Notes: generated by a model from the letters alone, not told the origin. DNA of 45,861 nucleotides from Eubacterium sp. (GCA_022769325.1 JALEKC010000157.1:1-45861); one strand, 5' to 3'. Positions 15,567-44,920 are shown, counted from the stretch's first letter. Made by a program: numbers and translations.

Positions 15567-16655
15567 TCAATAATCGATGGTTTCCAGATAGTTCATATAT
15601 TTAACAACCATAAGTGCAATCTTAAAGGTAATGGCATCATCAAAAACCCGCAAGTCAAGTCCGGTACTTTTTTGAAGTTTATCCAGGCGATATACCAGTG
15701 TATTTCTATGGATATATAATTGTCTGGAAGTCTCCGAAACATTCAAATTATTCTCAAAGAATTTATTAATCGTAGTCAATGTCTCTTCATCAAACTGATC
15801 CGGAGTTTTTTCTTCGAAAATTTCCTTGATGAACATCTTACAAAGAGGCATGGGAAGCTGGTAAATCAAACGCCCAATTCCAAGATTACTATAAGCAATT
15901 ACATTTTTATCGCTATAAAAAATCTTTCCCACATCCAGAGCCATCTTCGCTTCTTTGTGAGAGCGGGATACTTCTTTTAAATCCTTCACAATGGTTCCAA
16001 AAGCCACATGTACCCGCGACATAGCCTCTGTATTGAGCATATCTACGATGACATGTGCTGTCTTTTCCAAATCCTCTATCTGATCCCGTTCCCCAATCTC
16101 CTTGACAAGGATAATATTTTTTTCATCCACCGCAGTAATAAAATCTTTGGTTTGAGTGGCAAACATACTTCGAACCGTCTCAAGAGCCCCGGAATCTTTT
16201 TCTTTATTCGTCTCAATCAAAAATACCACACGTCTGGCATTCATCTCAATATGCAATTTTTTGGCACGGTTAAAGATATCAACCAAAAGAAGATTGTCCA
16301 ACAATAAATTCTTGATAAAATTATCTTTATCATATCTTTCTTTATAGGCAACCAGAAGTCCCTCTATCTGCAATACAATCATTTTCCCTATGGTATACGC
16401 TTCCTCCGAATCTCCTCGGATTATTACAACATATTCTAATTGACCTTCATCATATACCTTAAAATAATGACATCCTTTTACAACCTGACTGTCTGCCGGC
16501 GACTGGATAAAACTCAATTCATCCTCTTGACTCAGTCTAAAATCATCCGATGTTGTGGCCAATGTATTTCCTTCTGCATCCGTTACGCATAAATCATTTT
16601 TTATAATCCCCTTAATACCTTCAATTGTATTTTGTAAAATCTGATTTGATATCAT
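15567..16655 (-). CDS. CdaR/PucR-family transcriptional regulator
   Basis: N-terminal sugar-diacid-recognition-like domain; C-terminal PucR HTH NVSETSRQLYIHRNTLVYRLDKLQKSTGLDLR. Confidence 0.85.
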   Translation of the reverse strand: MISNQILQNTIEGIKGIIKNDLCVTDAEGNTLATTSDDFRLSQEDELSFIQSPADSQVVKGCHYFKVYDEGQLEYVVIIRGDSEEAYTIGKMIVLQIEGLLVAYKERYDKDNFIKNLLLDNLLLVDIFNRAKKLHIEMNARRVVFLIETNKEKDSGALETVRSMFATQTKDFITAVDEKNIILVKEIGERDQIEDLEKTAHVIVDMLNTEAMSRVHVAFGTIVKDLKEVSRSHKEAKMALDVGKIFYSDKNVIAYSNLGIGRLIYQLPMPLCKMFIKEIFEEKTPDQFDEETLTTINKFFENNLNVSETSRQLYIHRNTLVYRLDKLQKSTGLDLRVFDDAITFKIALMVVKYMNYLETIDY

Positions 16656-16732
16656 TACTACACCTCCAAAAAAAGTCTACTCTTGTCGCATTATATTATA
16701 TTGTATCATTTTTTCAAAAAAAAGGCAAGCAA

Positions 16733-16758
16733 AAAGGGATGCCATTTGGCATCCCTTT
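16733..16758 (-). terminator. Intrinsic terminator downstream of the msmK/ugpC-like gene
   Basis: AAAGGGATGCC-attt-GGCATCCCTTT with a T-run on the minus strand. Confidence 0.8.
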
Positions 16759-16786
16759 AGTATCACTTACCTATGTAAGAGAAATT

Positions 16787-17899
16787 CTAGTTTGTAATGG
16801 TAACCTCAGTTTCTTTATCGAAGAGGTGAATCTTCTCAGCATCCAGAGCAATCTTAATGGTATCACCAGGACGAGCAGTTGTACGAGGATTAACACGTAC
16901 TGTAATATCAGTATCTTCGATTGTGAAATACAAGAATACTTCTGCACCAAGCATTTCATAAACTTTAACTGTAGCTTCCAATGTAGTATCTGGAGAATTA
17001 CTGATAAACATTTCTTCATCTTTAATATCTTCTGGACGAATACCAAAGATGATATCTTTATCTTCATATCCATTTTCAATCAATTTCTTAGCTTTGCTCT
17101 CTGTAAGTTTGATGGAATTGTTTCCAAATACAAGAAGAACATCGGAACCGGAAACGGTTACTCTTGCTTTGATGAAGTTCATCTGAGGTGAACCGATGAA
17201 TCCAGCAACGAAAAGGTTGTTTGGACGCATATACAAATCCAATGGGCTGTCAACCTGCTGTACGATACCGTCTTTCATAACAACGATACGAGTACCAAGT
17301 GTCAAAGCCTCTGTCTGGTCATGTGTTACGTAGATAATTGTTGTTTCCAGTCTCTGATGAAGTTTGGAAATCTCAATACGCATCTGTACACGAAGTTTTG
17401 CATCCAAGTTGGAAAGAGGCTCATCCATAAGGAATACTTTAGGATCACGAACGATAGCACGACCCATAGCAACACGCTGTCTCTGTCCACCGGACAAAGC
17501 CTTTGGTTTACGGTCAAGCAAATGCTCGATATCAAGAATCTTAGCTGCCTCATGTACGAGACGGTTAATCTGATCCTTTGGAACTTTTCTTAATTTCAAA
17601 CCGAATGCCATATTATCAAATACGGACATATGTGGATACAAAGCATAGTTCTGGAATACCATGGCGATATCACGGTCTTTTGGCTCTACGTCATTTACTA
17701 ATTTGTCTCCAATCCAAAGCTCACCGCTTGAAATCTCTTCCAAACCAGCAATCATACGAAGAGTAGTTGATTTACCACATCCAGATGGACCTACGAAAAT
17801 GATAAATTCTTTATCTTCAATTTCAAGATTAAAGTCCTTAACAGCGTGAAAGCCGTTTGGATATACTTTGTTAATGTTTTTTAATGATAAACTTGCCAT
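16787..17899 (-). CDS. Carbohydrate ABC importer ATPase (MsmK/UgpC type), no permease nearby
   Basis: [55 protein letters not shown]-terminal TOBE region. Confidence 0.93.
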
Positions 17900-18029
17900 T
17901 GCATGTTCCTCCTGAAAATATTTTTTTCATAACATCTGTATTTAATACTATACACTATTTTCAAGAAAAACTCTATATCTAAAATTCATAAATAATAAAA
18001 AAATCTTTGTATAATTTGCATAAGATTTT

Positions 18030-18905
18030 TTATGACATTTCATGCCAAAACCCCTCTCCCAGTACCTCTTTTGCATCAGAAACAATAAAAAAAGCATTTT
18101 TATCGGCACATTTCACAATTTCCTTTAATATAACCGCTTCTTTTTTAGACACAACGCACATAAGAACTGTTTTGTTGGTTTTCGAATACATTCCCCTCCC
18201 TTCTAAACCCGTAATTCCTCTTCCTAATTGCCGGAACACTTCTTCTGCAATGCTTTCCGAATCGTCGGATATGATATAAGCAACTTTGGCAAATTTCAAC
18301 CCCTCCACAATGGCATCTGACACCTTTCCTGTAACAAAAACTGCCACTACGGCATACAATCCTATCTCCAAGCCAAATACAAACACGCCGGCAGCCACAA
18401 TTACCGTATCAATGAGAATCAATCTTTCTGGAGCTCGTAATCCCAGCATAAATCTACCTGTTAATGTACTTAAAAGATCACTCCCTCCTGTAGACGCCCC
18501 CTGGGAAAATACAAGACCGATTCCGACACCATTTAATGTCCCCCCAACCAATGTTGCCATCAAATAGTCCTGTTTTACAATATCATAAGTGGGAACCACC
18601 ATTAAAAAGAAAGAAAAACAAATTGCCGCATAAATGGTTTTCCGTATAAACATTCTTCCTTTTTGATAATACCCCCAGATAAAAAGAGGAATATTCAGTA
18701 CCAGCGTGGTGAATCCTACGGAAATTCCTGGTGAGTTCTCTGTCTGTGTCATTTTTTTTACTAGAATTCCAATACCGGAAAAACCACCTGTGACCATGGA
18801 AAGAGGTTCATAAATCACATTGATTCCCACTGCCATAAAAAATGTACCTGCTGTTAAAAGCAGGTACGTCTTCCAAAGGTTTCTCTTATTGTTCTTGATT
18901 TTCAT
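18030..18905 (-). CDS. YitT family membrane protein
   Basis: MKIKNNKRNLWKTYLLLTAGTFFMAVGINVIYEPLSMVTGGFSGIGILV...; C-terminal DUF2179-like region. Start trimmed. Confidence 0.88.
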   Translation of the reverse strand: MKIKNNKRNLWKTYLLLTAGTFFMAVGINVIYEPLSMVTGGFSGIGILVKKMTQTENSPGISVGFTTLVLNIPLFIWGYYQKGRMFIRKTIYAAICFSFFLMVVPTYDIVKQDYLMATLVGGTLNGVGIGLVFSQGASTGGSDLLSTLTGRFMLGLRAPERLILIDTVIVAAGVFVFGLEIGLYAVVAVFVTGKVSDAIVEGLKFAKVAYIISDDSESIAEEVFRQLGRGITGLEGRGMYSKTNKTVLMCVVSKKEAVILKEIVKCADKNAFFIVSDAKEVLGEGFWHEMS

Positions 18906-18942
18906 CTCCAGACAACTCCTTTTGAGCATCGGACTGCTCCAA

Positions 18943-19668
18943 CTACTTTTTGATATTATAGTTGTCCATTTTCTTTTGAAATATTCGTTTTCTCCAGTTG
19001 ACAGAGTAAGGAACACGAGCAATGCTGGCATATAATTTTCCGAGATGAAGCCGTTTGATGATATTGGGTACATGAATATTTTCTCTTAATATCATATCCA
19101 TAACTCCACTTAATACTACACCCAATTTTGCATTTATCATATGACGATTATGTTCCAAAAAAACCTCCGCCTGCTCTCCTTGCATAGCCATCAAAATCAA
19201 GTCCGGCACCTTGGTATTGATTTCATTAACCAGCGCCTCTTCAGTAATGTTGGAATCCATGGAATACACTCCCGTTATTTCCATATCAACATAACTTTTT
19301 TTGATATAACGGTAAACAATTTTTGCTTCTTTTTTGTTTCTTAAAATCAAGAAACATTTTTTATTTTTCAGTAAGTCCTTTGCCATCAAGCGATGAGCAA
19401 TTCGATAATCAACCACCATTCCACCTGATTCAAGGACATCCACATGATACATACTCAAAATTGCCTTTTCTCCGGGCAAAACCAAATCTGCCTGCTGCAA
19501 TACCCGTTGAACCACCGGCTCCTCTTCATATTTATCAATATAGTCTAAAGAGATTAAATGCACCACCCGAAATAAATCACCGGAAAGATATTCTGCCATT
19601 TTCTCACAAAAAGTTTCTTCGGTCAAAAGATCCAGTTCCAAGTCCATAATTTTCAAACTTGTTCCCAT
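18943..19668 (-). CDS. WecG/TagA/CpsF-like glycosyltransferase homolog lacking the usual PDG motif
   Basis: MGTSLKIMDLELDLLTEETFCEKM...VVHLISLDYIDKYEEEPVVQRVLQQADLVLPGEKAIL...KVPDLILMAMQGEQAEVFL...; overall WecG/TagA layout. Confidence 0.65.
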   Translation of the reverse strand: MGTSLKIMDLELDLLTEETFCEKMAEYLSGDLFRVVHLISLDYIDKYEEEPVVQRVLQQADLVLPGEKAILSMYHVDVLESGGMVVDYRIAHRLMAKDLLKNKKCFLILRNKKEAKIVYRYIKKSYVDMEITGVYSMDSNITEEALVNEINTKVPDLILMAMQGEQAEVFLEHNRHMINAKLGVVLSGVMDMILRENIHVPNIIKRLHLGKLYASIARVPYSVNWRKRIFQKKMDNYNIKK

Positions 19669-19703
19669 GACTACTCCTTTCTTTGTTGCACAAGTCCATC
19701 CAA

Positions 19704-20810
19704 CTATTTTAAAGCATCCTCTGTTCCCAATACAATCTCTACATCCGCTCCATTGGTCAAAGAATCGGCTTCCTGAATAATCGGATTTTTGAAATAATCT
19801 TTCAAATAGTGGCCCCACCTTTTTCTGCGAGCATAAATCGTTGTCTGTTTCTGAACGGCACCGGTATAGTCCCCAACTCCCATAACATATAAACCATCTT
19901 TTTCCAGTTTTTCTTTGTAAGCAGCAGCCAGTCCATTAATCTTGCTTCCATTGGTAATTTGAATACTGCGGGATTTCAACTTGTCAAATCCTGTCGTTGC
20001 AGTTGTTCCATCCACAGATTTTTGAGGAGTGGTACGTGCTTCCGTTTCCCAAATCTGATCAATCATTTTTTTTGTCTTTTTGCCATCCAGGGTTGCACTT
20101 CCTTTTATTTCTTCCGCATAGGCCCGGTGTGCATAGATACAATCTCTTTTTACTTTTATAAGCCCCGATGCATATTGCTGTTTCTGGCTCAACGTAATAT
20201 CCGATATCAAACTGTCCCATTCGTCTTCAATAAAATCTTTCATGGATTCTTCACTGCCATCTGTCGGCACCGTTTCCAGATATTCCTGGTTGGGACGAAA
20301 AGCACCATCTTTCTTTTCAAATCGCTTTTCGAATTCCACCGAATCCAATGCCGTAAAATAACCAATTTCCACATCTAATTCTTTCTGTAGCAACAAAATG
20401 CCGTATTCATAAGCGACATCTCCCTTAAAATACTGGTTGATATCCCGAAGGGTGACAATCTGTGGCATCGTAGGACTAATCTTCTGATATTCCTCAAAAG
20501 CCTTTGCATCCAGTGAAATCTGTGTTTTATTAGGAATCGTGATATAATCCAGATTTCCCGTTTCTTTATCAAATAATTCAAGTACGATTGCCCGCACAAG
20601 ATTGGTATCCTTTTCGACGCTATAGATCAAATTGCTGGACTCCGAACCGGTATCCACGGTAATCACATGCTCATACCGGGTACTTCTCTCCTCTTTTGTT
20701 GTGACTTTAAACCATAATGAAGTCAAAAAATAGCTTGCCACACCAACACCTACCAGCAAAGCCATGATTCCAATTGTTTTTCCAAATACTTTTAAAAATA
20801 TTTTCGCCAT
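19704..20810 (-). CDS. LCP-like membrane protein with LytR_C-like C-terminal domain
   Basis: N-terminal TM; LCP-like AIVLELFDKETGNLDYITIPNKTQISL (PRD absent); C-terminal ITNGSKINGLAAAYKEKLEKDGLYVMGVGDYTGAVQKQTTIYARR. Confidence 0.65.
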   Translation of the reverse strand: MAKIFLKVFGKTIGIMALLVGVGVASYFLTSLWFKVTTKEERSTRYEHVITVDTGSESSNLIYSVEKDTNLVRAIVLELFDKETGNLDYITIPNKTQISLDAKAFEEYQKISPTMPQIVTLRDINQYFKGDVAYEYGILLLQKELDVEIGYFTALDSVEFEKRFEKKDGAFRPNQEYLETVPTDGSEESMKDFIEDEWDSLISDITLSQKQQYASGLIKVKRDCIYAHRAYAEEIKGSATLDGKKTKKMIDQIWETEARTTPQKSVDGTTATTGFDKLKSRSIQITNGSKINGLAAAYKEKLEKDGLYVMGVGDYTGAVQKQTTIYARRKRWGHYLKDYFKNPIIQEADSLTNGADVEIVLGTEDALK

Positions 20811-21854: not shown

Positions 21855-23579
21855 TTATTTGCCATAATGAACATGCAGCAATTCATGTGAACGTTCTTTC
21901 AACATACCGGTTTCATACATGGAAACCAGTGTTGGATTTTCTTCTGATCTCTTTACAATAGCAGATTTATCCGCTTTGTACATACCATTTGCACGTTCTT
22001 CTTTCACACTGCGATAACCAAACGGCTGTCCGGCACCACCGATACATCCGTACGGACATGCCATAACCTCTACAAAGTCCAGCTTCTCTTCTCCTTTTTG
22101 CAACTTTTCAATTAATTTTTCTGCATTACCAAGGCCATTTACCACACCCACGCGTAATGTAGTTCCTGCAACTTCAACTTCTGCAACTTTTGTACCTTCC
22201 AGGCCTCGAATACCAGAGTACTGTATTTCACGCAGAGCTTCGTTGTTTTTGTCAGCAACATGTCGAAGAGCAGCCTCCATGACGCCTCCGGTTACTCCAA
22301 AAATAACACCGGCACCTGAACTAATAGAAAATGGCATATCCGGCGCACTTGGTTCAATTTCATCAAATTGAATTCCCAATTCTTTTATCATCAGAATCAA
22401 CTCTTTCGTTGTAATGACATAATCTACATCCGGTACCTCATTCCGTTTAAATTCATCTCTTGCCGCCTCATATTTTTTTGCAACACACGGCATAACAGCA
22501 ACAGAAACCGTCTCCAAACCTGCTTCTTCATCCGCTGGTTTGTAATACTCTTTTAACACTGCACCAAACATTTCCATCGGAGATTTACAAGTGGAAACAT
22601 AAGGCAGAAGCTCAGGATGCTTGGTTTCCACATAACGCACCCAAGCCGGACAACAAGAGGTAAACAACGGAAGACTGTTTCCCAATGGATACTTCTGCTC
22701 TCCATTTTTCAATTTATAGACCAATTCATTGGCTTCTTCCACCACAGTTAAATCTGCGCTGAAACTGGTGTCGAATACCGTATCAAATCCCAGCATGCGA
22801 AGAGCTGTAAATATCTTACCAATGGAATTTTTTCCAGGTGTCAGACCAAATTCTTCTCCAATGGCCACACGAACTGCCGGTGCAATCTGTGCAACTACAC
22901 GTTTTCCAGGTGCATACAAAGCCTGCCACACTTCGCGCAGATCATTTTTAATCGTAATGGCTGCCGTCGGACAAACCGCTGCACACTGACCACAATTCAC
23001 ACAATCCGTCTCCGCAATCTTCTTACCAAATGCCGGGCTGACAATCATATCTGCCCCACGGAAAGCAAAATCAATAGCACCTACATTCTGTACTTCATTA
23101 CACATACGAACACAGTCACCGCAAAGAATACATTTACTTGGATCCCTCACAATGGAAAGGGAGGAATCGTCGATGCAGCGCTCTGGATGTGTATTTGGAA
23201 AACGTACTTTGGAAAGACGAAAACGAGTTGCCAACATCTGAAGACGGCAATTTCCGTCTTTATCACAAACTGTACAATCTCGACAATGAGATGCCAGAAG
23301 CAGTTCCAAAATCATTTTACGGTGCTGATGCAATTTTGATGTGTTGGTCTTGATAACCATCTTATCTCTTGGTGGTGTAGAACAGGATGCAATTACATTT
23401 CCTCTCTCATCTTCTACCACACACATACGACAGGCTCCATAAATGGACATGTCCGAATAATAACAAAAGGTCGGTACATGGATTCCTGCTTTACGAATCA
23501 CCTGCAATATATTTTTTTCATCCGTAAACTCCGTACGAATTCCGTCAATTATCATATATTTTTTAGACATTCTTTTCAC
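21855..23579 (-). CDS. hydA: [FeFe]-hydrogenase catalytic subunit (HydA/HndD type)
   Basis: N-terminal 2Fe-2S and His-ligated cluster region (HCRDCTVCDKDGNC), two 4Fe-4S motifs, H-cluster motifs FTSCCPAWVRYVE, VMPCVAKKYEA, VMACPYGCIGGAGQP. Confidence 0.95.
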   Translation of the reverse strand: MKRMSKKYMIIDGIRTEFTDEKNILQVIRKAGIHVPTFCYYSDMSIYGACRMCVVEDERGNVIASCSTPPRDKMVIKTNTSKLHQHRKMILELLLASHCRDCTVCDKDGNCRLQMLATRFRLSKVRFPNTHPERCIDDSSLSIVRDPSKCILCGDCVRMCNEVQNVGAIDFAFRGADMIVSPAFGKKIAETDCVNCGQCAAVCPTAAITIKNDLREVWQALYAPGKRVVAQIAPAVRVAIGEEFGLTPGKNSIGKIFTALRMLGFDTVFDTSFSADLTVVEEANELVYKLKNGEQKYPLGNSLPLFTSCCPAWVRYVETKHPELLPYVSTCKSPMEMFGAVLKEYYKPADEEAGLETVSVAVMPCVAKKYEAARDEFKRNEVPDVDYVITTKELILMIKELGIQFDEIEPSAPDMPFSISSGAGVIFGVTGGVMEAALRHVADKNNEALREIQYSGIRGLEGTKVAEVEVAGTTLRVGVVNGLGNAEKLIEKLQKGEEKLDFVEVMACPYGCIGGAGQPFGYRSVKEERANGMYKADKSAIVKRSEENPTLVSMYETGMLKERSHELLHVHYGK

Positions 23580-23588
23580 CTGACCTTT

Positions 23589-25490
23589 CTATCCTTCCTT
23601 TACTGCACCAAAGTTGCAGCCCTCTTTACAAGCACCACATTTGATGCACTTTGTCGTATCAATAACATGTGGTTCTTTTACCGTTCCGGTGATAGCTCCT
23701 ACCGGACACATTCTTGCACACTTGGTACATCCTCGACAAAGATCAGGATCAATCTGTAATGTCATCAATGCCTTACACTGGCCAGCGGGACATTTTTTAT
23801 CTACTACATGAGCAACATATTCATCCCGGAAATATTTGAGTGTACTAATAACCGGTGATGCCGCTGTTTTGCCCAGTCCGCACAATGCCGTCGCCGAAAT
23901 CGTATCTGCCAATTTTTCCAAAAGTTCGATATGCTCCATGGTTCCTCGGCCTTCGGTAATATCTGTCAAAAGTTCCAGCATACGCTTGGTCCCCTCACGA
24001 CAAGGAACACATTTTCCACAGGACTCATTTTGGGTAAAGTTCATGAAAAAGCGTGCCACTTCGACCATACAACTCTTGTCATTCATAACAACAAGACCTC
24101 CGGAACCAATCATAGCTCCAACTTTTTTCAATGAATCGAAGTCCAGTTTCATATCCAGATGGTCTTCCGTTGCACTGATGCAGAGACATCCACCGGATGG
24201 TCCACCAATTTGAACTGCCTTGAAGTCGCCACCTTTGACACCTCCTCCGATGTCAAAAATAACTTCTCTAAGAGTAGTTCCCATCGGCACCTCAATCAAT
24301 CCGGTATTATTAACATTTCCAGTCAGTGCAAATGCCTTGGTTCCATGATTATTTTCCGGTCCATATCCCTGATACCATTTAGCTCCGTTCAGAATAATCG
24401 GCGGCACATTACAAAACGTCTCTACGTTATTTAATACCGTCGGTTTATCAAACAAGCCATGTTCCACAGTTCTCGGTGGTTTGACACGAGGCATACCACG
24501 ATTTCCTTCAATGGAAGTTGTCAATGCACTTCCTTCTCCACATACAAAGGCTCCCGCTCCCTGACTGATATGAAGATCAAAGTCAAATCCGGAACCCAAA
24601 ATATTTTTACCAAGAAGTCCTTTATCCAATGCTTTATCAATGGCTGTCTGCAAGCGCTCAACTGCAAGAGGATATTCGGCACGCACATAGATATATCCAT
24701 GGTGCGCTCCTGTTGCGATGGCTGCAATCAGCATACCTTCAATGACACGATGTGGTTCTCCTTCCATCATGGAACGGTCCATAAATGCTCCTGGATCCCC
24801 CTCGTCTCCATTGCAGACAACGTATTTTTCTTCTTCTTTCTGGTCCAGAACCTGTTGCCATTTTCTTCCTGCCGGGAAGCCTCCGCCTCCACGTCCGCGA
24901 AGAGCCGATTCACTAATCTCATCCACAATTTGCTGTGGTGTCATATCAAATAAGGCTTTTGCTACTGCACTATAACCTCCAAGTGCTATGTACTCTGCGA
25001 TACTCTCCGCATTGATACGACCGCAATACTCTAGTGCAATACGGGTCTGCTGTTTATAAAATGGGATATCTTCCTGCTTTACATAGGATTTCAAAGTCTG
25101 ATCCGTATAAACCAGTCGCTCTACCACTTCATCCCCGACAATACTTTTTTCAATAATCTCTTCACAGTCTTCCACTTTAACTTTTAAATACAACCATCCC
25201 ATCGGTTCGATGCGAAGCAATGGTCCCATTTCGCAGAAACCATGACATCCGCTCTTTTTCAATCCGATGCTCTCATCATGTGGTTCTTTTTCCAAAGAAA
25301 GTGCACAACGTAGTCCCTTTTCCTCTATGATTTCTTTCATTTTGGCATAAATTTCCAAAGAACCCCCAGCCACACAACCGGTTCCTGCACATATCAATAT
25401 CTGCTTTCTTTGACTATTGAGAGAAGCCTGATACTCCTTTTGCTTTTCAATCAATTGCTCTCTGGTCTCAATTCTCATCGTCCGCACCAC
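23589..25490 (-). CDS. hydB: NADH-binding hydrogenase subunit (HydB/HndC/NuoF-like)
   Basis: Thioredoxin-like Fd N-terminus (ICAGTGCVAGG), FMN/NADH region (GRGGGGFPAGRKW, CNGDEGDPGAFMDRS), NuoF cluster ESCGKCVPCREG, C-terminal 2x[4Fe-4S]. Confidence 0.94.
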   Translation of the reverse strand: MVRTMRIETREQLIEKQKEYQASLNSQRKQILICAGTGCVAGGSLEIYAKMKEIIEEKGLRCALSLEKEPHDESIGLKKSGCHGFCEMGPLLRIEPMGWLYLKVKVEDCEEIIEKSIVGDEVVERLVYTDQTLKSYVKQEDIPFYKQQTRIALEYCGRINAESIAEYIALGGYSAVAKALFDMTPQQIVDEISESALRGRGGGGFPAGRKWQQVLDQKEEEKYVVCNGDEGDPGAFMDRSMMEGEPHRVIEGMLIAAIATGAHHGYIYVRAEYPLAVERLQTAIDKALDKGLLGKNILGSGFDFDLHISQGAGAFVCGEGSALTTSIEGNRGMPRVKPPRTVEHGLFDKPTVLNNVETFCNVPPIILNGAKWYQGYGPENNHGTKAFALTGNVNNTGLIEVPMGTTLREVIFDIGGGVKGGDFKAVQIGGPSGGCLCISATEDHLDMKLDFDSLKKVGAMIGSGGLVVMNDKSCMVEVARFFMNFTQNESCGKCVPCREGTKRMLELLTDITEGRGTMEHIELLEKLADTISATALCGLGKTAASPVISTLKYFRDEYVAHVVDKKCPAGQCKALMTLQIDPDLCRGCTKCARMCPVGAITGTVKEPHVIDTTKCIKCGACKEGCNFGAVKEG

Positions 25491-25983
25491 CTTTCGCTTC
25501 TTCTTGAAGAGTCTGAATCAATTCCCTTGCTTTTTCCGGAGTCATAGCCGGATGCACATGATCATTCACCGTACATACCGGTGCCAGACCACAAGCGCCA
25601 AGACAGGATACTGTCTCCACTGTAAAAAGCATATCATCTGTTGTAGGCTTTGCCTCAGTCACTCCAAGGATTTTACGAAATTCTTCGAGAATTGGGACAG
25701 ATTTACGCACATGACAAGCTGTCCCATCACATATTTTAATTACATATTTTCCCTTTGGTTCCAATGAAAAATTCTCATAAAATGTGGCAACACCATAAAT
25801 CTTTGCTTCGCTCAATTTCAATTTTTTAGCAATGTAGCACAATGCCTCTTCCGGCAAATAATGATACTCCTTTTGAATGTCCTGCATAATCGCAATCAAA
25901 AGTGTAGGATCATAGTCGTGTTTTTGCAAAATTTCATCTAACTTTGCAATTTCTTGGTTTGTCAATTGTCCTTCTCCTTTCAA
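25468..25983 (-). CDS. hydC: NuoE/HydC-like [2Fe-2S] hydrogenase subunit
   Basis: LPEEALCYIAKKL, GVATFYENFSLEPKGKYVIKICDGTACHVR, VSCLGACGLAPV. 23-nt overlap with hydB. Confidence 0.93.
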   Translation of the reverse strand: MKGEGQLTNQEIAKLDEILQKHDYDPTLLIAIMQDIQKEYHYLPEEALCYIAKKLKLSEAKIYGVATFYENFSLEPKGKYVIKICDGTACHVRKSVPILEEFRKILGVTEAKPTTDDMLFTVETVSCLGACGLAPVCTVNDHVHPAMTPEKARELIQTLQEEAKGGADDEN

Positions 25984-38502: not shown

Positions 38503-39324
38503 TTATATGTTCAAAATAAAGGTATCCTGCTTCTTATAGAACAAGATCATACCAAGTGCCAGTGCAGCAAAACTTACTCCAAAAGTATAACCTAGCATAA
38601 CCATATCAAAGGGTTGGCCAAACAAGGCACGTCGAAAATTATCAATAATTCCAAACAAAGGATTGAGCTTAATCAACATTCCCTTATAGCCTTTCAATCT
38701 ACTTGCAAAATAGAAAATCGCACTGCAATACATGATTAACATCAGCATAACACTCCATAAGTACTCAATGTCACGGAAAAAGACACAGAGTGTCGCCAAA
38801 ATCAGTCCCACTCCCACACAGAGTATCAGAAGGTTAATCAAAGGAACGATGGACAAAAACATATATCCATTCATAGGGGCCTTGTATGACCCTGTGAAGC
38901 AGAAAAATACCATAACCCCCACCAGAACCACAAGGGAAATCAGGAATATGACGAAATTCGACAAAATTCCGGACAATGGGTACATATATTTAGGTACATA
39001 TACTTTTTTTATCATCGCTCCATTGGCACGAATGGACTTCATCGCACTATTGGTGGATGATGAAAAGAACGAATATAGTAAACGTCCTGTCAGTACATAA
39101 ACTGGAAACGGCACTCCTATAAAAGCTTTATCCTGTCCTGTCCTGCCAAGCATTTCTTCAAATACAAAACTAAGTACCATCATGGTAAGAAGTGGTTCAA
39201 TCAGTGTCCACAATATTCCAAGATAGGATCTTCGATATTTTAATTTAATATTTTTCTTAGCCAGTTCTCCCAATAAATATCGATATCTGTTGAAGTTTTT
39301 TAAAACCTGCGACATAGTATCCAT
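38503..39324 (-). CDS. tagG: Teichoic acid/polysaccharide ABC exporter permease (TagG-like)
   Basis: ABC-2 type; LAKKNIKLKYRRSYLGILWTLIEPLLTMMVLSFVF; adjacent to tagH. Confidence 0.92.
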   Translation of the reverse strand: MDTMSQVLKNFNRYRYLLGELAKKNIKLKYRRSYLGILWTLIEPLLTMMVLSFVFEEMLGRTGQDKAFIGVPFPVYVLTGRLLYSFFSSSTNSAMKSIRANGAMIKKVYVPKYMYPLSGILSNFVIFLISLVVLVGVMVFFCFTGSYKAPMNGYMFLSIVPLINLLILCVGVGLILATLCVFFRDIEYLWSVMLMLIMYCSAIFYFASRLKGYKGMLIKLNPLFGIIDNFRRALFGQPFDMVMLGYTFGVSFAALALGMILFYKKQDTFILNI

Positions 39325-39437: not shown

Positions 39438-39465
39438 TTGACATATTTGACTCGTATGGTATTAT
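39438..39465 (+). promoter_or_regulatory. Sigma-A type promoter for the carboxyltransferase-MBOAT operon
   Basis: TTGACA (39438-39443), 16-nt spacer, extended -10 TGG-TATTAT (39460-39465). Confidence 0.65.
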
Positions 39466-39520
39466 TATATTTGTGATTTTATGTACATCTAACAACGAAT
39501 TTATGATTTAGAATGGAGAA

Positions 39521-41038
39521 ATGAACATGTATAACATGGAAAAACAACACAAATTAGGTAAATTACATGCATTAGAGCGAATTTGTCTTCTTCTTGATGA
39601 AGATTCTTTTCGTGAAATCGGCTCGAATATTACAAACTTAGAAGATGCTTTCAATATCAAAAAGGGCCAGTTTCCTTACGATGGTGTAATTACCGGCTAC
39701 GGAACCATTGGTGGCAAAAAAGTTGTCATCTATTCGGAAGACTTTACTGTAATCGGCGGTACACTGGGAAAACAGCACGGATACAAAATTGCCAATGCCA
39801 TTAAGATGGCCATTGAAAATCGTTGTCCGGTTATCGGAATCAACGATTCCGGCGGTGCACGTATTCAGGAAGGTGTCAATGCTCTTGCCGGGTATGGTGA
39901 AATTTTCTACTATAATACCATGGCATCCGGATATATCCCACAAATTTCAATCATTGCGGGAAACTGTGCCGGTGGTGCTGTATACAGCCCGGGAATCACA
40001 GATTTTATCTTTGTTATTGATGATATCAGCCAGATGTTTGTCACCGGTCCAAAAGTAATCAAGAGTGTGACCAATGAAGATATTACTGCATCCAGTCTCG
40101 GCGGTGCAAATGTTCATGCCCAACGCAGTGGTGTGGCTCATTTCCACAGCACTTCCGAAAAAGAATGTTTCAAAAAGGTACATCAGCTTTTGGATGTCAT
40201 TCCTCATTGTTATGAAGATGGATGCATCCATACAAAACCAGATACTTCTCTTCTTCCTTACAACAAGAATATGCAGTTTAATGAGGCATTATCCAATATT
40301 ATTCCGGAGAAGAGCAATCAAGCCTATGATATTCACAGTGTCATTGACGGCATTGTAGATGAAGACTCTTTTATAGAAGTTCAAGAGGAATTTGCCAAAA
40401 ATGTAGTGGTAGGTTTTGGACGATTGAAGGGAATTACCATTGGTATTGTATCTAACCAGCCAAACTTTATGGCCGGCGTCTTAGATTGTGATGCCAGCGA
40501 TAAAGCTGCTCGCTTTATTCGTTACTGCGACGCTTACAATATTCCGATTATTACCTTGACAGATGTTCCCGGCTTCCTTCCGGGCAAAGATCAGGAATAC
40601 AAAGGAATTATCCGTCATGGTGCCAAATTACTGTATGCTTATTCCGAAGCTACTACCATTAAGATTAATGTTATTTTGCGTAAAGCTTATGGAGGAGCTT
40701 ATATTGCCATGAGCAGTAAACATTTGCGTTCGGATTTTGTATATGCATGGCCTACCGCTGAAATTGCTGTTATGGGTGCCGATGGTGCTGCTGACATTTT
40801 ATATGGTAAGCAGATGAAAGCCATGAATCCGGCTGAAAAAGCAGCTTTCCGTCAGGAAAAGATTGATGAATACAATGAAAAATTCATGAATCCGGGAATT
40901 GCTGCCATGCACGGATATGTGGATGAAATCATCAAACCGGAAGCCACCAGAGAACGCTTATATGGCGACATTCTCATGCTGTCGGACAAGCGCTCTTTGG
41001 ATGCCATTCACAAAAAACACGGCAATATTCCGTTGTAA
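39521..41038 (+). CDS. Acyl-CoA carboxyltransferase subunit (propionyl/methylmalonyl-CoA type)
   Basis: KLHALERICLLLDEDSF, GINDSGGARIQEGVNALAGYGEIF, GNCAGGAVYSP, GGANVHAQRSGVAHF, VPGFLPGKDQEYKGIIRHGAKLLYAYSEATTIKINVILRKAYGGAYIAM. Confidence 0.93.
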   Translation: MNMYNMEKQHKLGKLHALERICLLLDEDSFREIGSNITNLEDAFNIKKGQFPYDGVITGYGTIGGKKVVIYSEDFTVIGGTLGKQHGYKIANAIKMAIENRCPVIGINDSGGARIQEGVNALAGYGEIFYYNTMASGYIPQISIIAGNCAGGAVYSPGITDFIFVIDDISQMFVTGPKVIKSVTNEDITASSLGGANVHAQRSGVAHFHSTSEKECFKKVHQLLDVIPHCYEDGCIHTKPDTSLLPYNKNMQFNEALSNIIPEKSNQAYDIHSVIDGIVDEDSFIEVQEEFAKNVVVGFGRLKGITIGIVSNQPNFMAGVLDCDASDKAARFIRYCDAYNIPIITLTDVPGFLPGKDQEYKGIIRHGAKLLYAYSEATTIKINVILRKAYGGAYIAMSSKHLRSDFVYAWPTAEIAVMGADGAADILYGKQMKAMNPAEKAAFRQEKIDEYNEKFMNPGIAAMHGYVDEIIKPEATRERLYGDILMLSDKRSLDAIHKKHGNIPL

Positions 41039-41072
41039 TATTTATTAACCATGTTGATTTAAGGAGTTTATC

Positions 41073-42485
41073 ATGATTTTTTCAACTTATCAATTTGTAC
41101 TTATCTTTTTACCAATTACCTTTGCCGGTTATTTTCTTTTGCAACATTTCAAATATGAAACACTGGCAAAATTATGGCTTGTCTTGGCTTCCTTTTTCTT
41201 CTATGCACAGGGAAGTCCGGATTTCTTCCCGTTCTTTCTGGGAAGTGTCGTGGGAAACTACGTAGTGGGAAATTGTCTTAGCAAATTACAGGGAGCCGAG
41301 CACCGAATTGAACGAGGTCTCCTTTTTACCGCCGGCATTCTGGGGAATGTAGGATTACTGGGTTATTACAAATATACCGACTTCTTTATTAAGAATGTGA
41401 ATTTCATCGCCGGAACCCATATTCCTTTGCAGCATATCATTCTTCCCATTGGTATCTCCTTCTTTACCTTCCAGCTGATTGCTTTTTTGGTGGATTCTTT
41501 CCGGGGGGAAACAAAGAATTATGATATCATTGACTATTTGTTATTTATCACTTTCTTCCCGCAGTTGATTGTAGGACCTATTATCCATCATGCGGAAGTG
41601 GTTCCCCAGTTTGAGGACAAAAAGAACCATCGATTGAATTTTGATAATGTGGCTCTTGGTATTTTTATTTTTTCCATCGGCTGTTTCAAAAAAATGATGC
41701 TGGCAGACCCACTTACAACAGATGCTCAGGGATTTTTCAACAATGTTAATGACCATCTGCCATTTATCCAATCCTGGTTCCATTCCATTGAATATACCGT
41801 ATCCTACTATTTCGACTTATCCGGATATGCGGACATGGCAATTGGACTTGGATGGATGTTCAATATCAATATCCCTCAAAACTTTAATTCACCCTATAAA
41901 GCAAAAGATTTTCAGGAATATTGGCAGAGATGGCATATGACCCTTTCCCGTTTCCTGAGTTCTTATATCTTTCGAAATGTTTACCGTCGAGGTGTCAAAT
42001 ATCGTAACTATTATGTCGCTTCTATGTGTACCTTTCTCGTTTCCGGTTTTTGGCACGGCGCCGGCTGGACGTTTGTTGTTTGGGGACTTGTAAACGGTAT
42101 TTTGGTATGTATTGCTTCTTATCGAAACAAACATGATATGAAAACACCATTGTGGCTTGGTGTTCCACTTACCTTTATTCTCGCTGTTTTGGTGCGTGTT
42201 TTGTTTGTTTCCAATACCTTTACCGACGCTTGGTATGTCCTTCGTGGAATGTTCAACTTCTCTTCCCTTCATCTGTCTTCTATCAAGGATGCTTTGATGG
42301 GCAATTGGGAAATGTGGCTTTTAAACTTGTTTGGACTTGCTATTTGTTGGTTTGCTCCAACAACCAAGAAAATGACCGAACATTTCAAACCAAACTGGAA
42401 ATACCTTCTTTATGCAGCCACCCTGCTGATTATTTGTCTTCTCAACATGGATAAGGTTGTACAATTCCTTTACTTCCAGTTCTAA
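41073..42485 (+). CDS. MBOAT-family membrane O-acyltransferase (AlgI/DltB-like)
   Basis: FQEYWQRWHMTLSRFLSSYIFRNVYRRG...SGFWHGAGWTFVVWGLVNGI, including the invariant His. Confidence 0.93.
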   Translation: MIFSTYQFVLIFLPITFAGYFLLQHFKYETLAKLWLVLASFFFYAQGSPDFFPFFLGSVVGNYVVGNCLSKLQGAEHRIERGLLFTAGILGNVGLLGYYKYTDFFIKNVNFIAGTHIPLQHIILPIGISFFTFQLIAFLVDSFRGETKNYDIIDYLLFITFFPQLIVGPIIHHAEVVPQFEDKKNHRLNFDNVALGIFIFSIGCFKKMMLADPLTTDAQGFFNNVNDHLPFIQSWFHSIEYTVSYYFDLSGYADMAIGLGWMFNINIPQNFNSPYKAKDFQEYWQRWHMTLSRFLSSYIFRNVYRRGVKYRNYYVASMCTFLVSGFWHGAGWTFVVWGLVNGILVCIASYRNKHDMKTPLWLGVPLTFILAVLVRVLFVSNTFTDAWYVLRGMFNFSSLHLSSIKDALMGNWEMWLLNLFGLAICWFAPTTKKMTEHFKPNWKYLLYAATLLIICLLNMDKVVQFLYFQF

Positions 42486-42499
42486 ATTTATAGAAAGGT

Positions 42500-43660
42500 A
42501 TGACGGAAATGAATGCAAAAAAATGGACAATAAGTTTTGTCATTATTATCCTTATATGTCTTCTCTTTATCATGGGAACCAATTTTTTTGTAGACCCTTA
42601 TGGCTATTTTGGTTCTTGTAAAGGGGAAAATTATACCATGGATGAGGAAGATTACCTGCGGGAACAAAAAGCAGAGCATATAAAATACCATGGCAATGAA
42701 TACGATGCCTTTTTAGTCGGTGGGTCCAAAGCCGGAGCCATTCATAGTGATAAATTATCTGAAATTGACGGATACAAGTACTATAATTGCTGGCTTTTGT
42801 CCGGAAATTTTGAAGACTATTACACCTATTGCAAATATATTATCAATACGGCTCATCCCAAAAAGATTCTCCTGCACATCTCGACTTCCGAGATTGCCCA
42901 ATTTGACCGGGAAGCTAAGGGAGATATCTACGAAGTTCCCGCCGTCATCAGCGGGAAATCCAAAGTGGCAGAAGTTACAAAATTCTTATTTAAAAATCTT
43001 TCTGTCAGTTGGGATACCATCACTTCCAAAGAAGAATCTTATCCGGTGCAAAAAACCGGAGAAAGAAATCTTTCGAAATATTATGCTTTTTATCAAACCC
43101 ATAAAGACAAAAATGCCTATTATGACTACCTGATGAAGGCACAAGTTGACCCCTATCTTCCCCGTTTAATCAATGGCACAAAAGATAAGGCGGATTTGGT
43201 CAATTCCAACATCACGTATTTAAAGAAAATCAAACAACTCTGTGATAAAAACCAGGTTGAGTTGAATGTTTTTCTTGGCTCCCTATTTATCGGTGAGATG
43301 GTGGGCTACGAGGGCAATAGTTTTTACAATTGGTTGACGCAAATGGTTGAAATCACCGGTGGACTATGGTGTTTTAATAATTATAATGATTTGGTCTACA
43401 ATCCATTTAACTATTATAATGCCAGACATTATTATTATGAAATGGGAGACCTTATGATTGAACGCATGAGTGGAAAATCCACGGCATATGATGATTTTGG
43501 TATCTATCTGACACCGGATAATATTGCTTCTGAAATTGCCACTCGACGTGCAAAAACAGAGGAAATTCGCCAATATTACAAAAAAACAGGCACCATTCCT
43601 CTCAGTGATTATGAGGATGCTTCCAATATCACAAGAAACAGCCCATATTTGAACCAATAA
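42500..43660 (+). CDS. Membrane-anchored SGNH/DltD-like MBOAT partner, paralog A
   Basis: N-terminal TM, NFFVDPYGYF, LVGGSKAGAI, NARHYYYEMGDLMI; next to MBOAT; full-length similarity to the next ORF. Confidence 0.7.
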   Translation: MTEMNAKKWTISFVIIILICLLFIMGTNFFVDPYGYFGSCKGENYTMDEEDYLREQKAEHIKYHGNEYDAFLVGGSKAGAIHSDKLSEIDGYKYYNCWLLSGNFEDYYTYCKYIINTAHPKKILLHISTSEIAQFDREAKGDIYEVPAVISGKSKVAEVTKFLFKNLSVSWDTITSKEESYPVQKTGERNLSKYYAFYQTHKDKNAYYDYLMKAQVDPYLPRLINGTKDKADLVNSNITYLKKIKQLCDKNQVELNVFLGSLFIGEMVGYEGNSFYNWLTQMVEITGGLWCFNNYNDLVYNPFNYYNARHYYYEMGDLMIERMSGKSTAYDDFGIYLTPDNIASEIATRRAKTEEIRQYYKKTGTIPLSDYEDASNITRNSPYLNQ

Positions 43661-43703
43661 AGATGAATTTCGAAAACATCGCAACAGAAAGGTTGGATTT
43701 TAT

Positions 43704-44846
43704 ATGACAACAAAAAAATGGTGTATTCGTTTTCTCTGCATCATAATTGCTGCTCTTCTATTCATTATGGGTGTGAACTATTTTTACGATCCCTATGGAT
43801 ATTTTCGCAGCCAAAGCGGCGATTGCTATGTTTTAGATGAAAATGACTACCTGCGAGAACAAAAAGCGCAACATATTAAACATTTCTCCGATCAATACGA
43901 CGCGTATCTGATTGGTGGGTCAAAAGCAGGTGCTCTTCGTACGGATAAATTAAAAGAACTAGATGGCTATAATTATTATAACTGCTGGGTTCTTTCGGGA
44001 AATTTCCAGGATTATGAAGCTTATACCAAATATATTGTAGAGCATACCAATGCCAAAAAGGTACTATTGCAAATCTCTACTTCGGAGATCAAACAATTTG
44101 ACCGCGAATCTCGTGGAGCTATTTACGAGACACCGGCCATTCTCAGTGGTTCTTCCAAAACCGAAGAAGTTTTTCAATTTTTATTTAAAAATTTAAAGGT
44201 TTCTTTCGAGGAAATGTTTGACTCTTCGCCATCGTACCCTTGCATGAAAACCGGCGAAAGAAATTTGACCAAATATTATAACTACTTTAATGAGCACAAA
44301 GGTTCCGAAGAATATTATAACTTCCTTTTGAAAAAGAAAGTGGATGAATTTTATAAATATTTGGAAAAAGGCACACCGGACCGCTCTTCTGTCGTCAGCC
44401 AGTGTATCGCCTCCCTCAAACGCATGAAAAAAATGTGTGAGAAAAAAGGTGTGGAATTTCAGATTTTCATTGGTTCCGTTTTTGCCGGACAGATGATTGG
44501 TTACGAAGGCAGCAGTTTTTATGAATTTTTACGGGAAGTTGTACAGGTTGGTGAGAATGTATGGTGTTTCAACACCTTCAATGACGTTGCCATGAATGTC
44601 TATAACTACTATGACATCTCTCACTATTACTATGAAATCGGTGATTTGATGATCGATACCATGGCAGGAAAAACGACTTCTCACGATGGATTTGGTATTT
44701 TACTGACTCCGGATAATGTGGAAGAAGAAATTACTCACAGACAGCGTGAATTGGCAAACTGGAAATCCTACTATGAAACCCATGGTACTCTTCCCTTTCA
44801 GGGAATGGAGAATGAACAAAGTCTGATTCCGAAAATATATGGGTAA
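43704..44846 (+). CDS. Membrane-anchored SGNH/DltD-like MBOAT partner, paralog B
   Basis: N-terminal TM, NYFYDPYGYF, LIGGSKAGAL, DISHYYYEIGDLMI; tandem paralog of the upstream ORF. Confidence 0.7.
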   Translation: MTTKKWCIRFLCIIIAALLFIMGVNYFYDPYGYFRSQSGDCYVLDENDYLREQKAQHIKHFSDQYDAYLIGGSKAGALRTDKLKELDGYNYYNCWVLSGNFQDYEAYTKYIVEHTNAKKVLLQISTSEIKQFDRESRGAIYETPAILSGSSKTEEVFQFLFKNLKVSFEEMFDSSPSYPCMKTGERNLTKYYNYFNEHKGSEEYYNFLLKKKVDEFYKYLEKGTPDRSSVVSQCIASLKRMKKMCEKKGVEFQIFIGSVFAGQMIGYEGSSFYEFLREVVQVGENVWCFNTFNDVAMNVYNYYDISHYYYEIGDLMIDTMAGKTTSHDGFGILLTPDNVEEEITHRQRELANWKSYYETHGTLPFQGMENEQSLIPKIYG

Positions 44847-44884: not shown

Positions 44885-44920
44885 AAAAAAAGAATTGCAA
44901 AACCTGCAATTCTTTTTTTT
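44885..44920. terminator. Bidirectional intrinsic terminator
   Basis: AGAATTGCA-aaacc-TGCAATTCT stem flanked by A7 and T8, between convergent genes. Confidence 0.85.

Follow-up and report, generated by a model that had tools for sequence, protein, structure and literature searches.

The DltB–DltD pair carries out the d-alanylation of teichoic acids and, like PatA–PatB and AlgI–AlgJ/X, consists of an MBOAT protein with a catalytic histidine and a membrane-anchored SGNH partner. We analysed a 45 861-nucleotide stretch of DNA (the window) from a member of the Eubacterium xylanophilum genus (Lachnospirales) whose draft genome measures 2.28 Mb and is 87% complete. It encodes a comparable pair beside a polymer export cluster, and the predicted fold of one of its SGNH proteins, S2, matches DltD. 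The locus differs from DltB–DltD in that DltA and DltC are missing, the MBOAT falls below the DltB equivalog cut-off, the SGNH aspartate is mostly asparagine, and the MBOAT–SGNH genes are preceded by a carboxyltransferase (CT1) or, elsewhere, by an acyl-CoA ligase.

The product we propose for CT1, malonyl-CoA for FabD, is also that of acetyl-CoA carboxylase (AccABCD), a textbook-essential enzyme and antibiotic target; unlike organisms with that enzyme, the genus yielded no AccC, AccA or AccB of its own. The Propionibacterium transcarboxylase (12S-1.3S-5S) offers a second parallel, because the genus has a 12S-type carboxyltransferase, a 1.3S-like carrier and a 5S-type oxaloacetate carboxyltransferase. 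It differs in that CT1 is encoded apart, the genes for the carrier and 5S accompany those of Na+-decarboxylase subunits, and the proposed acceptor is acetyl-CoA. The closest solved relative of CT1 is the PCC beta subunit of Thermotoga maritima (1vrg), and the Thermotogales share the same gap, having neither biotin carboxylase nor the carboxyltransferase subunits of acetyl-CoA carboxylase (PMC3199775); T. maritima, used as a control genome, has FabD. Beyond that paper, we found no literature precedent for fatty acid synthesis lacking biotin carboxylase or for malonylated bacterial polymers.

Organization of the operon

Four open reading frames occupy positions 39521–44846 with intergenic gaps of 34, 14 and 43 nt (Table 1), the layout given in an earlier note on this DNA, whose promoter, terminator and divergent teichoic-acid-like cluster we also recovered. 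The promoter reads TTGACA-16-TATTAT with an upstream TG. About 24 promoter-like matches of at least 9/12 arise by chance in the region; TTGACA-16-TATNAT with the TG is kept 5′ of CT1 in nearly all congeners, with MBOAT present or absent, so the operon promoter is real. The terminator, GAATTGCA...TGCAATTC followed by a T-run, was missed by a consensus scan and seen by folding. CT1 probably starts at 39527 rather than 39521, since most relatives align from residue 2–4, and S1 probably at 42509 rather than 42500, because of the spacing to the RBS and because the alignment of relatives begins at MNAKKW.

Table 1. Positions of the operon and its divergent neighbour in the window
Feature	Position	Strand	Evidence
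Extended -10 promoter of operon	39438–39465	+	11/12 consensus with TG; kept in genus
CT1 (PccB/MmdA/12S-type carboxyltransferase), 505 aa	39521–41038	+	PF01039 1e-170; closest PDB 1vrg
MBOAT, DltB/AlgI class, 470 aa	41073–42485	+	PF03062 6e-28; WHG motif, His328
S1, DltD-like SGNH paralog, 386 aa	42500–43660	+	53% identity to S2; motif alignment
S2, DltD-like SGNH protein, 380 aa	43704–44846	+	AlphaFold model; best Foldseek matches are DltD
Intrinsic terminator	about 44886–44918	+	Stem-loop -14.1 kcal/mol and T-run
TagG-like ABC-2 permease, divergent neighbour	38503–39324	-	PF01061

The cluster on the other side of CT1 comprises TagG-, TagH-, TagD-, TagB-like and LCP genes, and a TagG-like gene adjoins CT1 in most congeners. 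A distant CT1 (62–64%) in genome G041 (L051:6165-11860) lies beside TagA-, YitT-, MalK- and PucR-like genes; the same genes are found ∼ 20 kb from CT1 in the window (15567–19818), which points to a shared ancestral neighbourhood. The window also holds a three-gene NuoE/NuoF/iron-hydrogenase-like operon (21855–25983), recognized from translations only.

The MBOAT and SGNH proteins

The MBOAT matches the DltB structures 6bug and 8jem at 4e-21, in agreement with its earlier assignment to the AlgI/DltB class, and scores 145.6 bits against the DltB equivalog TIGR04091, under the cut-off of 375. The catalytic histidine of its WHG motif is invariant in 12 cassette MBOATs. Neither DltA nor DltC was found in the window cassette. 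No Pfam or NCBIfam model matched S1 or S2. The AlphaFold model of S2 (pLDDT 76) has DltD as its top Foldseek matches (7dxm, 3bma and 6o93; E 3e-4, probability 1.0, moderate TM 0.4), so that the modelled fold is of the DltD type. The description of S1 and S2 as SGNH-like paralogs stands. S2 has an N-terminal membrane helix and the SGNH residues Ser73, Asn100, Asp304 and His307. S1 keeps the serine of GGSK and the histidine, and the aspartate of DxxH is replaced by asparagine. Serine and histidine are invariant in S1/S2 homologs, and asparagine takes the place of the aspartate in most of them, including those of other genera.

CT1 in a genus without acetyl-CoA carboxylase

CT1 is a full-length Carboxyl_trans protein, as expected from its earlier identification as an acyl-CoA carboxyltransferase, with intact oxyanion motifs (CAGGAVYS and KAYGGAY). 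At the specificity site (D422 in PccB, I420 in AccB) CT1 has Ile395, and all congeners examined have isoleucine. D-to-I changes at this site raise the use of acetyl-CoA in two characterised enzymes (PMC7835884), and the residue favours acetyl-CoA as the likely substrate of CT1; the same isoleucine is also present in decarboxylase-type carboxyltransferases, which counts against this reading. The nearest non-cassette kin of CT1 are located in inositol operons or stand alone, another point against the explanation proposed below.

CT1, FabD and a biotin carrier, essentially one per genome, were each found in 35 of 37 congeners. A search for biotin carboxylase with TIGR00514 gave no match in any of the 37, isolates included (13 of 14 control genomes were positive), and PF02785 was absent from the three genomes G000, G034 and G036. 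The only PF03255 matches in the 37 congeners were CT1 and CT2, a second carboxyltransferase, and TIGR00513 gave no AccA in the same three genomes. The same pattern in two isolates, E. xylanophilum (G028) and P6B14 (G011), shows that the absence of biotin carboxylase and AccA is not an artefact of metagenome binning. The genus appears to have lost the ATP-dependent acetyl-CoA carboxylase, and with no biotin carboxylase in the genome, CT1 is ruled out as part of a complete carboxylase. The earlier note had found no carboxylase or decarboxylase partners of CT1 in the window; for biotin carboxylase this extends to the whole genome, whereas a biotin carrier and a membrane decarboxylase are encoded elsewhere in it.

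The sole carrier of the genus sits in a decarboxylase operon, CT2-OadG-BCCP-OadB-5S. A contig end cuts this operon before 5S in G000; in relatives 5S continues it, and CT1, carrier and 5S co-occur in single genomes. Two genomes count against a general scheme: G023 (98% complete) has CT1 and no biotin carrier, possibly a binning gap, and G136 has CT1 with FabD not found at threshold.

Distribution across the order

The order survey covered 197 genomes, each at least 95% complete except G000, with FabD in 176, biotin carboxylase in 136 and AccA in 166. CT1-type genes (E below 1e-150) were present in 9 of 11 genomes with FabD and no AccA compared with 5 of 165 with both (Fisher p 3e-10, or 3e-8 with the genus counted once, other related genomes not being independent). 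In two of these five (G049 and G143) the gene lies in an inositol operon, and at least one absence of AccA, that in G078, may be a contig-edge gap. Biotin carboxylase is missing from 43 FabD-positive genomes, of which 37 retain AccA; 42 of the 43 have a carboxyltransferase match compared with 92 of the 133 that have biotin carboxylase (p 3e-5). The four fab loci that we read (L152, L153, L158 and L160), from other Lachnospirales genomes without a biotin carboxylase match, contain AccD/AccA or a 644-aa AccD–AccA fusion and no AccB or AccC. G222 has a CT1 homolog immediately 3′ of FabG-FabZ-FabD (L144:8892-11370). These order-wide patterns, G222 and the fab loci suggest that the decarboxylase operon is the source of carboxybiotin for the carboxyltransferases of these genomes, and that in the E. 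xylanophilum genus AccA/AccD is replaced by CT1.

Two candidates for a missing biotin carboxylase were rejected. A 347-aa gene in the fab operons of family f11 encodes a secreted protein without a Pfam match, and the biotin carboxylase of G222 adjoins a 5-oxoprolinase-type gene (CT_C_D) and was not accepted as part of an acetyl-CoA carboxylase. The secreted protein, of no recognised family, is located between FabZ and AccD (L152:11145-12188 and L153:11296-12276). The CT1 homolog of G222 is also near a double ketosynthase, an AMP ligase and an acyltransferase.

Could CT1 instead serve propionate metabolism, as the alpha subunit of a methylmalonyl-CoA decarboxylase or transcarboxylase whose partners come from the OadB/OadG/BCCP operon? 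Its best NCBIfam model is MmdA (TIGR01117, 659.9 bits, under the cut-off of 998.8), and CT1-like genes neighbour a biotin carrier gene in G054, G047 and G078, the last with OadB as well. However, the decarboxylase operon has its own CT2, CT1 lies beside that operon and beside MmdB/C/D in no congener examined, isoleucine takes the place of the aspartate of propionyl-type enzymes, and CT1 is tightly anticorrelated with AccA. We consider this role improbable.

CT2 could itself be, or share the role of, the acetyl-CoA enzyme, which is a point against our proposal. If it were, CT1 would serve only surface chemistry or another substrate. CT2-type genes do occur in nearly all FabD-positive genomes without biotin carboxylase (42 of 43 with a carboxyltransferase match), but they also accompany a full AccA/biotin carboxylase set in most of the family. 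Moreover, the CT2 motif is altered to GEAFGSAY where CT1-type proteins have RKAYGGAY (L072:8534-9910 and L002:1290-2771), and CT1 is retained where MBOAT is lost. This alternative, with CT2 as the acetyl-CoA enzyme and CT1 confined to surface chemistry or another substrate, is very improbable on these data.

Linkage of CT1 to the MBOAT–SGNH genes

Among 37 related loci with a CT1 identity of at least 74% and enough downstream sequence, MBOAT is next to CT1 in 11 and missing in 26. The order CT1-MBOAT-S2 is present in the isolate E. xylanophilum ATCC 35991. The view that the linkage is confined to close relatives was overturned by a search for S2 in 396 genomes of the family: S2 was found in ten, and the order CT1-MBOAT-S in six of the ten, counting the window genome. 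Outside the genus the CT1-MBOAT-SGNH cassette occurs in G306, G433, G342, G540 and G400 (loci L121, L126 and L129), and that of G433 is also beside TagG/H/D genes. In G400 (L186:3-10245) the cassette lies 3′ of an AMP-ligase/nitroreductase fusion, a second MBOAT and a GDSL/Big_2 protein.

Cassette CT1s form two clades with strong support, and both clades also have unlinked members. The pairing of carboxyltransferase and MBOAT extends to other genera and to carboxyltransferases of both clades. Between the clades identity is about 50% for CT1 and about 65% for MBOAT, whereas in the window's group CT1 is the slower-evolving gene. The greater divergence of the CT1s suggests that two carboxyltransferases became linked to one MBOAT family on separate occasions, or that one of them was replaced. 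Four genomes (G271, G508, G482 and G368) have MBOAT-S2 without CT1; in G482 and G368 its place upstream of MBOAT-SGNH is taken by an AMP-forming acyl-CoA ligase with an SsuA-like importer. Among solved structures these ligases are closest to oxalate-CoA ligases, and malonyl-CoA synthetases rank lower. We did not accept them as oxalate-CoA ligases because the motifs of the active site (substrate site) differ.

The repeated coupling of MBOAT to enzymes that produce acyl-CoA, CT1 or a ligase, supports use of the CT1 product by MBOAT. Most congeners have no MBOAT genes and yet keep CT1, which argues for a role of its own, as does the conservation of CT1 in a genus with FAS II and without AccA/AccC. 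We conclude that CT1 has a role independent of MBOAT, probably a housekeeping one. The earlier idea that CT1 sets the acyl-CoA pool for MBOAT is supported by the recurrent cassettes and the ligase substitution, but not as the whole story, in view of the 26 loci lacking MBOAT. A dual role agrees with the many congeners that have lost MBOAT-S and retained CT1.

A simpler account has CT1 make malonyl-CoA for fatty acids only, with the MBOAT–DltD-like pair transferring ordinary O-acetyl or other groups and co-transcribed by chance from the CT1 promoter. Retention of CT1 behind the same promoter in most congeners without MBOAT is what it predicts, and the MBOAT-S2 pairs without CT1 agree with it. 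It does not explain why same-order cassettes occur in several other genera with carboxyltransferases from two clades, nor why an acyl-CoA ligase stands in the place of CT1 elsewhere, and we regard it as somewhat unlikely.

Proposed mechanism

From the gene set, the promoter, the absence of biotin carboxylase and AccA, the phyletic pattern, the linkage and the DltD-like fold, all read from sequence, we infer the following reactions. Oxaloacetate would carboxylate the BCCP of the separate decarboxylase operon via the 5S subunit, and CT1 would share this carrier and move the carboxyl group to acetyl-CoA, yielding malonyl-CoA with no biotin carboxylase involved. In all members of the genus this malonyl-CoA would feed FabD and fatty acid synthesis. 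Members with the downstream genes, that of the window among them, may also offer it to MBOAT, of which it is the likely acyl donor. On the far side of the membrane the DltD-like SGNH proteins would receive the acyl group from MBOAT and O-acylate a surface polymer with it; this polymer is possibly the cargo of the adjacent TagGH-type transporter. That CT1 forms malonyl-CoA by transcarboxylation, for FabD and, where present, for surface O-acylation by MBOAT, we put forward tentatively, with a chance just short of even. The stricter version, in which CT1 makes malonyl-CoA in a step that needs neither biotin carboxylase nor ATP, acetyl-CoA carboxylase is replaced and the MBOAT–DltD-like pair specifically O-malonylates the polymer, we rate as unlikely.

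If the proposal is true, common gut and rumen bacteria would rely on oxaloacetate as carboxyl donor, and not on acetyl-CoA carboxylase, to make the key precursor of their fatty acids, and transcarboxylation would explain the acetyl-CoA carboxylase gap in many Lachnospirales genomes and in the Thermotogales. The CT1 cassette would be a new donor-supply module for surface acylation of the DltB/DltD class. A carboxylated surface ester is then predicted, and O-malonylation would give the cell-surface polymer a negative charge.
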